NCBI GenBank assembly: GCA_019096065.1
Contig: JAGUCH010000009.1
Span: 4,102,001 to 4,166,000, forward strand
Reading direction: 5' to 3'
DNA: 64,000 nucleotides
Origin: Paracyclopina nana
Lineage: Eukaryota; Arthropoda; Copepoda; Cyclopoida; Cyclopettidae
Shown here: piece after piece, positions 23,930 to 60,056 of the stretch
Layout of the letters: every line of letters starts with the position of its first letter
How positions within the stretch are numbered: the stretch's first letter is position 1
The notes under the pieces: model-generated
What the model was told of the DNA's origin: nothing
The model's input: only the letters and a program-made list of their open reading frames with translations
Database searches by the model: none
Program-made: the position numbers and the translations under genes

Positions 23930-23936
23930 TATAAAG
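23930..23936 (+). promoter_or_regulatory. TATA box of the carbonic anhydrase fusion gene
   Basis: TATAAAG lies 57 bp upstream of the start codon at 23993. A start site about 30 bp downstream would leave a 5' leader of roughly 30 bases, which is consistent with a compact TATA-driven promoter. Confidence 0.6.
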
Positions 23937-23992: not shown

Positions 23993-26900
23993 ATGTGGTT
24001 GCTCCAACTTGTATTTTTGAACTTAGCTTTGAAAGCCCATTCCGCTAGCTGGGGATACACAGCAGCCGATGGTACATATAAAAGCTTAATACACATTTAG
24101 CTGTAACTACTTGATTATTTTCGCTCAAAGGCCCCTTGACTGATAGCTGGGGAGACCCTTATTGTAAAACTGGACTCAGCCAATCACCAATTGATATTTA
24201 CAACGTAACCAAAGTGAACAATTGGTTGCCTCTTAGATTTTTGGGCTACAGAGAAAAGATTGATGATATTGCAATTTTCAATAATGGCCACACCATTCAA
24301 CTGAATATGCCAGAAACTTGCCAATCAAGACCAAGAGTAGGGCTAATTTTATATTTTAAATTGAACTTAAAGACTATAAAGAGCATCCATAACAGATCAT
24401 TCAAGGAAATCTCCCAGAAGAGTACGAGCTTGCACAGCTTCACTTCCATTGGGGATCAAAGCATTCAAAAGGATCTGAGCACAAACTCTATGGGGTAATT
24501 TTTAGAAGATAAGCTCGAGCTTTTGAAATAATGGGTGTATCATTAAAGGAGCAATACCCTGCTGAGGTGCACTTTGTTCACTACAAGACGAGCTGTGGTA
24601 TTTCTCTATCCGAAGCCTTAGCTAACTGCGGCACCGATCCTCAAGTGTTGGCTGTCGTTGGAGTGTTCATAGAGATCGGCGATCATAATGAGGCATTTGA
24701 GCCCATTGTGGACGGTAACTTAAAAAAATGGCTAAGTCACCAACTGTTGCTTGATATTTTACAACTCTTCAGTGATTGACGCTTTGGAGTTTCCCAACAA
24801 AGACAACCCACTAAACTTGAACAATATTCAACTGCGAGACATGCTACCCAGACAAGTTACCGAGTTTTATAGATATCCTGGATCTTTGACAACTCCCGTT
24901 TGCAATGAACTCGTGGTTTGGACAGTCATGAAAGTATGTATCGCCATTCAACCAAAAAAAACCATTCCATTTAAAACGCTTTAGTTAAAATACGAGGTTT
25001 ATGAATGGTGCAGTGTGCGCCTAGCGTAAATAAATCATGCAGCGCAAGTGCAAAGGACAGAAATGACAAAAACCAAATATCAGAAAATATTGCAACTGAA
25101 ATTTTTTTGTAGCGGTGTCAATAATAATAGCGAAGCTGCAGCAAAAAAAGACACGTAAGAGCTAAAATATCACCATCCTTTCTAGAACACAATTCAAATG
25201 TCCTATCAACAAATGAGCCGTTTCTGGACAACCAAGACTGCCCTTTCCGAGCCCCTCATCGATAACTTTAGGCCAGTTCAGCCAAGAAACGACAGAAATG
25301 TCTTCTACGCTGATCTCCACCTCCATTGCCATTCAAACTCATGGAAAACACAAGAGCAATGCGATATCAAATACAGGTGTGTGTTAGCTAATCTAATTCC
25401 TCCCTATCTGAAAAGTGACATATGTTGTTGGACTAATTTAAGGGAAACCTCCGAAAGCATGAGCTTCGAATCAGCTGTGAAAGCCTGCGTGGGAAATCAG
25501 GTTAAGCACACAGCTTTTGCTGGCCTTATCCCAGTTGGAAAGCTGCGATGCCTGAGGAACAGATTCGAAACCAATGGATGGAATAACGAGCATGACTTCT
25601 GCAACAGATACTTCCATGTCAATGCAGTCAAGGATGAAACTGGCATTTGGAGGCAATATCCTGATGGCTCCCCAGTCAGCTTTAGCCACTTCCCTGACTT
25701 CAACCAAGAGCAAGGAGGCCGAGGAGATTCACTCGTCTGGGATGCCCTGAAAAATCGACTATTTGTAGGAGGAGATGAGCACTTCAATGGCCTTTGCTAC
25801 CAAGGCCATAATTATGGTAGAATAGCGAGCTTTCTCTTATCTCAATGCGCTGATAGCAGTACATGTTTCAGAATGTGACAATTGCCCTGGATACAATCAA
25901 GGCCACGAGTGTTCCGATGCTGGAGATTGCTATGACAGCGAGTGTGCATGTGATGTTGGATTTACAGGACACAGCTGCCAGCTTGGACGTACGTAACACC
26001 TTATACTGCAGCAGTATGCTACGCAGTACAAGTGGCGTCAAATGTTTACACATGTTTTGTTTTTTATAACAGCTTTGCCTGATAATGATATTGTTGTCGT
26101 TGGCAACATTGCTACAGCAACAACCTCCCTGGCTGAGAAAGCTAACACCATTGCTGAGACCGTTTGCGCAGTGACCGAATATGAAAGCATCAACCCCAAC
26201 GGAGTTTCTGGAATGTATTGCGATTTCGTTTTTGGCAGAGGCATTTGCTGCGGTGGCATTTCAGCCGATGGAACTTCAACTTCAGACATCTGTGCCATCT
26301 ACAACTGCAATGATGGCACATGGCAAGAATTCCATGATCTTCCTTTGGCAGTATCCGAAGCAGCCTCCACACCCATCAGGAACAAAGGAAAGGACCATGC
26401 CTGGATGATTTCAGGAGGAGTTGGTAACTGAAACATATTTTTGCGGGGAAAAAATTAGTAAACTAAAAGGTTGTGTATCTACTTACAGTTTCGGGAACAA
26501 CCGATGTTCAGCAAAGCACCATCTTCGTCTTGGAACGCGATTTGAAATGGGAGAGGATTGATAATCCAGCCGTTACACCAAGATCAAGTCACTGCATGGT
26601 TCAAATCAGCGACTGCGAAGTAGCTCTGATTGGAGGCTACGTCGATGGTGACTTGAGCACAAGCAGTGACACCGTCGAAATTTACAATTTCAAGAAAAAC
26701 ACTGTCAAATCTGGACCAACGTAAGCGCTCTTAAAATTGACTCAAAATATGTGAGGGTTACCCCAAAAAACGATCTTTTTAGACTTGTCGCAGCAACAAC
26801 GAACATGGCATGCAACTTGATCAAGGAAAAAATGACTGACATGGACAAAGTTGTCATTGGTTGTGGAGATTCGGATGATTCCGTTCAAGTGTGGGACTTG

Positions 26901-27143
26901 GAAACCAATGAAGTCTACTTGAGCACCTACACTTGTCCAGCCGATTCAACCGGAGTGAGCCAATTTAAAAGGCTCGATGATCAACATCTCGTGTTAACAA
27001 ACGCCGTGGACAAGTTGTACACCTTCAATTTGATTGATTCTTTCACAGAATTGGCTACCACAAGCGCTGATCACAGCGATGGAAATGCATTTGTTGCCCC
27101 AAGAGGACATGGAAAATGCATGCCAGCTCCTACTGGCCCCTAG
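23993..27143 (+). CDS. secreted alpha-carbonic anhydrase / C-type-lectin-like / EGF-like / kelch fusion protein
   Basis: Eleven exons: 23993-24071, 24131-24336, 24396-24494, 24549-24714, 24773-24933, 25186-25376, 25416-25816, 25872-25988, 26073-26423, 26489-26720, 26783-27143. All introns are GT-AG, and the phases join to an open frame of about 787 codons. Residues 1-18 are a signal peptide. Residues 19-280 are an alpha-carbonic anhydrase (reversible CO2 hydration): QSPIDI, proton-shuttle H80, zinc ligands H111, H113 (QLHFHWG) and H136 (AEVHFVH), SLTTP with T223, and C38/C226 matching the disulphide of secreted isoforms. NFRPVQP closes the domain inside exon 6. Residues 302-434 resemble a C-type-lectin domain (MSFESAVKAC, DGSPVSF, a final GLCYQ). 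Residues 435-473 form a six-cysteine EGF-like module. The rest has kelch-like blades (ICCGGIS, VALIGGY, VEIYNF, VVIGCG). The 39-bp intron 25377-25415 is in frame and might be retained. The product is probably extracellular; its ligand is unknown. Confidence 0.85.
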
Positions 27144-58696: not shown

Positions 58697-60007
58697 TTAA
58701 TTGGCAGTCAGTGGAATCCTGGAAACCCTGAAAGTTTCACACCCACAATTGGAAGACTCGAGCTCCATGGCTGGCACAGTGTGGCTCAACATTTTCTCAA
58801 ATACGTTTTTGAAATCCACGAGCCAAAAAGCACAATCCTAAAATTGGATAATGAAATTGATCATTTCAGAGGAAATTAATTTTTATGAAGTATACATTAG
58901 CATATTTGCTGGCTAGGTCAAATCCTCGTCCTTTTTGGCAATTGTCAGGCTGGCAAGAATCATCAAGTCCACAGGTATGATCTAGATTGCAAGTAATTTG
59001 CCCATTTTCACTCAACGATAAGTTGTAAAACATTTCAAAGTCAGTGTTGAGCATGAATCCAGCCTTTTCCCCAGTCCCTTTGTAAACTCCATCAAATTGC
59101 CATTTTGCAGTCTTCTCATCGTCATCCTCTTTATTCTGGTGAAAATGGCTTTTGTTAAACGCAACATTACACTCTATGCTCACGCAACCTCGCTGCACGA
59201 AAAGTTCCGCTTCATAGCTAAATGAAAAATGGCTTACCACGTTGATCCAGGATATTTTTTTGTTCACCATAATTGAGTAGAATTTTTCGTCAAACACGAG
59301 ATCCTCGTTTTGCACCCAGTCACCAAGATATCCGGAATGCTCCCTAGCAGCTTGGCCCAAGGTGTGAGCGCCCATCAAAGCCACCACTTCTGGAATGCTC
59401 ATACCAAACTCATTTTCAAAGTATTTGTAAGTGGATGAGCTGTCCTTTTTGGGATCTGGGAAAATGTTCTGGTCATTCGAGCAGTCCTCGCGATCCACTC
59501 TGCCCCATTTCAAATTAAAGCAGACTTTAGGACACCTGAAAATCAATCAAGTTCACTCAACACTGAAAAGTCATTCAGTACGAAAAGTACGTACTTGATG
59601 GGATCGGCCTTATCCAGGCCAAGCTCGACTCCAACAACTGCAGCCAGAGCGTAAAAATCGGCTCGACTCACAATTTGCGAAAAACCTAATTTTTCATAGA
59701 TTTGGTCTAATGGCTCAGTGATCATGAGCAAACCGAAATTATCTGGATTATTGTGATTCACACAACCATTGCATCCGCCAACGCAATCATGAAAACCTGG
59801 TAAATTAAGTATTTAATATACAGTATGTTTATCAGAAGAAATTTTGGGAGACTTACCCAGTCTGACAGCTTTGGGCATGAGCATTTCGTTGTCGAAAATA
59901 ATTTCAGTGATGGCTGCTTTCATTTCCTGAATTTCTTCGCATGTTGGCATGGAGAGTACGAAGCAAGGTGAGATTGCCAAGAAGGCAAAAATGAGGCTTT
60001 TTAGCAT
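58697..60007 (-). CDS. secreted haem peroxidase, cytochrome c / ascorbate peroxidase-like (343 aa)
   Basis: Five exons: 60007-59857, 59796-59595, 59535-59238, 59135-58896, 58837-58697. Introns are 60, 59, 102 and 58 bp, all GT-AG. The product belongs to the plant/fungal/bacterial haem peroxidase superfamily, which uses H2O2 to oxidise a donor. Residues 1-19 are a signal peptide. Distal Arg49 and His53 lie in RLGFHDCVGGCNGC; proximal His175 lies in VVALMGAHTLG. Trp191 is exactly 16 residues later, the spacing of H175/W191 in cytochrome c peroxidase and H163/W179 in ascorbate peroxidase, and Asp249 in MLNTD matches their proximal Asp. Fungal secreted (class II) enzymes carry Phe at the Trp position. 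Many cysteines suggest disulphides and export, so class I-like catalysis is combined with secretion. The 102-bp intron is in frame and stop-free. I prefer the ATG at 60007 to one 36 bp upstream because it directly begins the signal peptide. The last exon contains DFKNVFEKM, a conserved C-terminal helix. Confidence 0.88.
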
Positions 60008-60056
60008 GTTCGATGCACGAGGGAATAAATACAACTCGCGCACCTCAAATCAGGGC

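Follow-up and report, generated by a model that had tools for sequence, protein, structure and literature searches.

A predicted extracellular carbonic anhydrase carrying C-type-lectin-like, EGF and kelch modules, in a gene family that has mostly lost its zinc site

Fish CA VI-pentraxin is a secreted alpha-carbonic anhydrase (CA) that ends in a lectin-like recognition domain, a pentraxin, and molluscan nacrein is a secreted CA with an inserted low-complexity Gly-X-Asn repeat. The receptor tyrosine phosphatases gamma and zeta and the CA-related proteins contain catalytically dead CA domains. Attractin and MEGF8 are extracellular proteins in which kelch and EGF modules (in attractin also a C-type-lectin-like domain, CTLD) are combined with a CUB domain and a membrane anchor. 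We know of no protein in which CA, CTLD, EGF and kelch succeed one another in that order; the gene described here would add this module order to the alpha-CA family.

The gene lies at 23993-27143 (+) of a 64,000-nt stretch of DNA, hereafter the window (C9:4102001-4166000), in a genome of 92 Mb and 10 contigs. The region was re-read and spliced by splice-aware alignment with two related proteins, P0001 and P0003, as guides. This gave one gene of 11 exons (Table 1) with a predicted product of 778 residues, along which CA, a divergent CTLD, an EGF module and a kelch propeller follow one another. All 10 introns are GT-AG and measure 54-252 nt, and a single frame runs to the stop codon. The protein is probably secreted: a signal-like stretch at its N-terminus was supported, as judged by eye, and beyond the N-terminus no membrane-like segment was seen, the best 19-residue mean hydropathy (1.4) falling within the CA.

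Table 1. Features of the fused gene, in window coordinates
Feature	Position	Strand	Content
TATA-box-like element GGCTATAAAGG	23930..23935	+	63 nt upstream of ATG; fits the consensus, which alone does not show use
Exon 1	23993..24071	+	Start codon, signal peptide MWLLQLVFLNLALKAHS (by eye), first CA residues
Exon 2	24131..24336	+	CA; proton-shuttle His in NNGHT
Exon 3	24396..24494	+	CA; zinc ligands His94 and His96 in LHFHWG; Glu106
Exon 4	24549..24714	+	CA; zinc ligand His119 in AEVHF
Exon 5	24773..24933	+	CA; Thr199/Thr200 in SLTTP; second cysteine of the pair
Exon 6	25186..25376	+	Final CA strand (NFRPVQP, 25264-25284), linker, first CTLD residues
Intron within CTLD	25377..25442	+	66 nt, no in-frame stop; both alignment guides agree
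Exon 7	25443..25816	+	Main part of CTLD
Exon 8	25872..25988	+	EGF-like module; 117 nt, both flanking introns in phase 1
Exon 9	26073..26423	+	Kelch propeller, first part
Exon 10	26489..26720	+	Kelch propeller; best Pfam Kelch_4 match
Exon 11	26783..27143	+	End of kelch propeller; stop codon TAG 27141-27143

The original prediction of a single-gene fusion was confirmed by the one frame, the 10 introns and four paralogues of the same order. Its claim that the junctions are in phase to one stop held for the frame, but one junction had to be corrected, that of the intron inside the CTLD (25377-25442), whose position and phase are identical in 4/4 paralogues. Read-through of this segment was discarded, since splice-aware alignment with both guides places an intron there, and an intron end at 25415 was discarded by the same alignment. 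Variants obtained with P0001 as guide (introns 4 and 9 placed differently, and a short additional exon at 24985-25023) were contradicted by the P0003 guide and by the paralogue introns. No AATAAA or ATTAAA was found within 557 nt downstream of the stop codon. Elsewhere in the window, at 58869-60049 (-), lie exons of a probably secreted haem peroxidase of plant/fungal/bacterial type (PF00141; FHDC and GAHTLG motifs), whose best solved matches were cytochrome c and ascorbate peroxidases. Eight PF00141-type exon matches, at six or seven places, were counted in the genome.

The CA module of an earlier 787-residue model matched PF00194 with 235 bits (E 1e-69, residues 32-278), above the curated cut-off. 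Compared with solved sequences, the CA part had 242 matches at E<=0.001, and among the best 60 of these 242 the closest were CA XIV and CA II. In CA II numbering it carries N62, H64, Q92, H94, H96, E106, E117, H119, V121, V143, Y194, L198, T199, T200 and W209; position 67 is Gln, as in CA XIV, and the two agree at 16/16 active-site positions read. The claim of intact catalytic residues was borne out: the three zinc histidines (H94, H96, H119), the shuttle histidine (H64) and the Thr199/Glu106 gate of active alpha-CAs are all present, and the loss of at least one zinc histidine that characterizes the acatalytic CA-related proteins was not found in the window copy. By established CA chemistry, this copy is predicted to bind zinc and to hydrate CO2 extracellularly.

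The CTLD and EGF assignments are less firm than those of the other domains. In a Pfam search of the joined translation, as had been proposed, CA and kelch scored above their cut-offs (Kelch_4 E 5e-9, in the same earlier model), and neither Lectin_C nor EGF was matched in the whole protein. Kelch repeats and a propeller fold were recognized. The EGF module occupies its own 117-nt exon between phase-1 introns, has cysteines C430, C439, C445, C450, C452 and C461, with their spacing judged by eye, and gave weak Pfam matches when searched as a module. All four module types originally named were supported, the CTLD as a probable, divergent fold.

Evidence for the CTLD is weak but concordant. A profile of 15 rows, L027 being one of them, scored 26.9, whereas 40 column shuffles reached no more than 15.4; the profile probability was only 28-35%, and P-, E- and L-selectin were among the fold matches. 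Lectin_C (PF00059) matched 0/13 family CTLDs (a set that includes L028) and gave no hit at E<=1 with the window protein; one of the 13 matched UL45 (E 0.002). The CTLD on its own, searched as a profile against the PDB, matched no chain up to E 10. A model of the CTLD piece from six alignment rows had a mean pLDDT of 40 (low confidence), and in an AlphaFold2 model of the homologue P0003 from five rows (mean pLDDT 41) the usable part was kelch only. EPN or QPD, together with WND, are the sugar-binding marks of C-type lectins. In a string search these were absent from 13/13 family CTLDs. The suggestion that the non-catalytic domains anchor the enzyme to a glycan is weakened, because the family CTLDs are without the sugar-binding motif, and a protein or matrix ligand appears as likely. 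Apparent repeats of CTLD-like, EGF, EGF and canonical CTLD units were observed at a separate locus, L025 (G000:C1:3251500-3259000), its CTLD-like unit being of the kind found in the CA-fused family.

The protein had been taken for a lone oddity, which it is not. A database search gave five proteins at E<=0.001 among 7995 scored. Three of them, P0001, P0002 and P0003 (814, 798 and 787 residues; source jgi), contain CA and kelch and align over their full length; P0004 and P0005 are partial and without CA. The first three need 2364-2445 nt of coding sequence, and their contigs, 2498-2701 nt long, leave no room for introns. Each is therefore most likely a transcript, and as single-frame proteins they answer the proposal to look for the same architecture elsewhere. 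The genome itself was searched with the non-CA part as query and with PF00194. Four further loci have CA and the remaining modules in order (L021, L022a and L022b on C4, L023 on C6), and the genome carries at least five genes of CA-CTLD-EGF-kelch build. The spliced paralogue models have 793-804 residues and no stops, with two GC-AG introns. Introns of the window gene are shared in place and phase by L021 (10/10), L022b (10/10), L023 (9/10) and L022a (8/10); one intron is peculiar to L021 and three to L023. Two loci, L024 and L026, encode CTLD-EGF-kelch with no CA found upstream, and L027, L028 and L029 were left out of the gene counts, their matches being too weak for models.

A solo secreted CA, L050, has 4/4 tested introns in common with the CA part of the window gene (a fifth, ahead of a doubtful 33-nt tail, was dropped), and the probable source of the fused gene is a secreted solo CA that has introns in common with it. 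In a 21-row CA tree the eight fusion rows fell on one side, with support 72/87. A tree of 13 rows drawn from these 21 placed the long-branched L023 outside, giving two changes; a single change was found in 32% of bootstraps, and one clade was not rejected (p-AU 0.43). The CA-less L024 and L026 did not group in a tree of the other modules. The common introns argue for one origin of the fusion.

All three zinc histidines are kept in only two of the eight fused proteins, the window copy and P0003. The other six have lost at least one, in differing combinations (H94L/Q/E/R, H96R, H119Q): L94 and Q119 in L021 and L022b; Q94 with H119 retained in L022a; E94 and Q119 in L023; R96 and Q119 with H94 retained in P0001; and R94, R96 and Q119 in P0002. 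P0001, L021, L022a and L022b form one group (support 98/99 in the 21-row CA tree, 96/97 in the 13-row tree), and P0002 is sister of the intact P0003 (83/85 and 80/80, respectively). Provided that lost ligands never return, the ancestor of the group of four would have been intact, because H94 survives in P0001, H119 in L022a and H96 in three of the four. This loss-only reading would require at least four inactivations (at least two in the P0001 group, one each in P0002 and L023); plain parsimony gave three intact/broken changes on 13 rows. CO2/bicarbonate conversion, the function originally envisaged, is ruled out as common to all members, because six of the seven fused relatives are without a full set of zinc ligands. 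Ligand loss is not limited to the fused family, as several solo CA models of the genome also lack them. Two near-identical CA genes, L051 (C3) and L052 (C7), both have R94 and Q119 instead of zinc histidines: a probably dead CA that has recently been duplicated and dispersed.

We favour, with a probability of roughly 0.6, an extracellular CA held by adhesive modules, in a family most of whose CA modules are non-catalytic. The CA module of the window copy, having zinc ligands and shuttle, would hydrate CO2 outside the cell, and the CTLD, EGF and kelch modules, to go by their types, would hold it in place through protein or matrix contacts. All four paralogues in the genome are zinc-broken, and the common job of the family would most likely be recognition or scaffolding; binding, not catalysis, is the likely common task because the sister copies have lost the zinc site. 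Catalysis may have been retained in some members; alternatively, binding and catalysis may be divided among the copies. If the active copy is tethered, a small animal could fix CO2/bicarbonate conversion, and hence pH, at a chosen outer surface. An idea we hold tentatively, at somewhat less than even odds, concerns the family, to date found in this arthropod genome and in the database sets jgi, merc and ena: a CA built onto an adhesive CTLD-EGF-kelch stalk may have passed repeatedly from enzyme to binding module, the window copy and P0003 staying intact, so that an active surface-tethered CA would face dead sisters competing for docking.

The varied ligand losses in six of eight proteins, at least four events on the loss-only count, together with the existence of CTLD-EGF-kelch genes with no CA in front (L024, L026), would also suit a protein that serves mainly in recognition or as a scaffold, its CA fold a binding surface, like the dead CA domains of the receptor phosphatases and CA-related proteins, and the window copy simply yet to lose its zinc site. 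This account seems unlikely, if still a serious one, since the CA parts of the window protein and P0003 are only 51% identical and both keep H64, H94, H96, E106, E117, H119, L198, T199 and T200, which drift would not do. A soluble immune or pattern-recognition protein, whose lectin-like end would bind foreign surfaces while the CA shifts local pH, follows the same logic as fish CA VI-pentraxin, and copies are clustered on C4 and a CTLD-like domain stands beside a canonical one in L025; with EPN, QPD and WND in none of the 13 family CTLDs, we consider it improbable. The remaining alternative is that two neighbours, a secreted CA and a CTLD-EGF-kelch gene, have been wrongly joined, and the intron ahead of the last CA exon is indeed 252 nt long and contains an AATAAA at 25029. 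That exon, as had been claimed, holds both the NFRPVQP block and the start of the CTLD; neither a stop nor a second signal peptide, the signs of two separate genes, was seen; and there are four paralogues with matching introns and three single-frame relatives on contigs without room for introns. A wrong join is very improbable.

Oikosins are modular, secreted house proteins of tunicates. A tunicate house protein was considered and dropped: neither kelch nor carbonic anhydrase is mentioned in the main text of PMC3390340, and the Hox set and cuticle matches say arthropod. A GH6 search also gave no match, but it picked up no control either and so carries no weight. From the genome size and the small introns, our guess is a crustacean, perhaps a copepod. 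The genome has 80 cuticle-protein exon matches (chitin_bind_4), and nine clustered homeoboxes were found among 14 loci read. We take the homeodomains of the Hox cluster to include ftz, Ubx, abd-A and Abd-B types, with the Ubx motif. An identical run of homeobox matches occurs on G000:C10 and at the end of G000:C6, and C10 probably represents a second haplotype of that end. At G000:C1:14475597-14478164 and 14534544-14536811, on opposite strands, four homeodomain matches each lie within one open frame, 1944 and 1407 codons long, respectively.

Among the known systems, nacrein resembles the window protein as a secreted CA with extra sequence, but there a repeat is placed inside the CA rather than three folded modules at the C-terminus, and no Gly-X-Asn run of at least three was found in the window protein. 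Attractin and MEGF8 likewise have kelch, EGF and, in attractin, a CTLD in one chain; they differ in having no CA, another order, an anchor and CUB. At E<=1 the window protein showed neither CUB nor an ATRN-type propeller, and Beta-prop_ATRN-LZTR1 was matched in relatives below the Pfam cut-off. Selectins, too, have a CTLD followed directly by one EGF, but their CTLD is a canonical calcium- and sugar-binding one and they bear CCP repeats and a membrane anchor. Fish CA VI-pentraxin shares the combination of CA and a lectin-like C-terminus, yet that end is a pentraxin instead of a CTLD, EGF and kelch are missing, and the protein is from vertebrates. The receptor phosphatases are membrane proteins with FNIII and phosphatase domains, the CA-related proteins stand alone, and the window copy, unlike either, keeps its zinc ligands. 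What they have in common with six of the eight members here is a CA fold that has outlasted the loss of zinc ligands, and one intact and four zinc-broken copies in a single genome make a natural series for asking why CA folds outlast catalysis.
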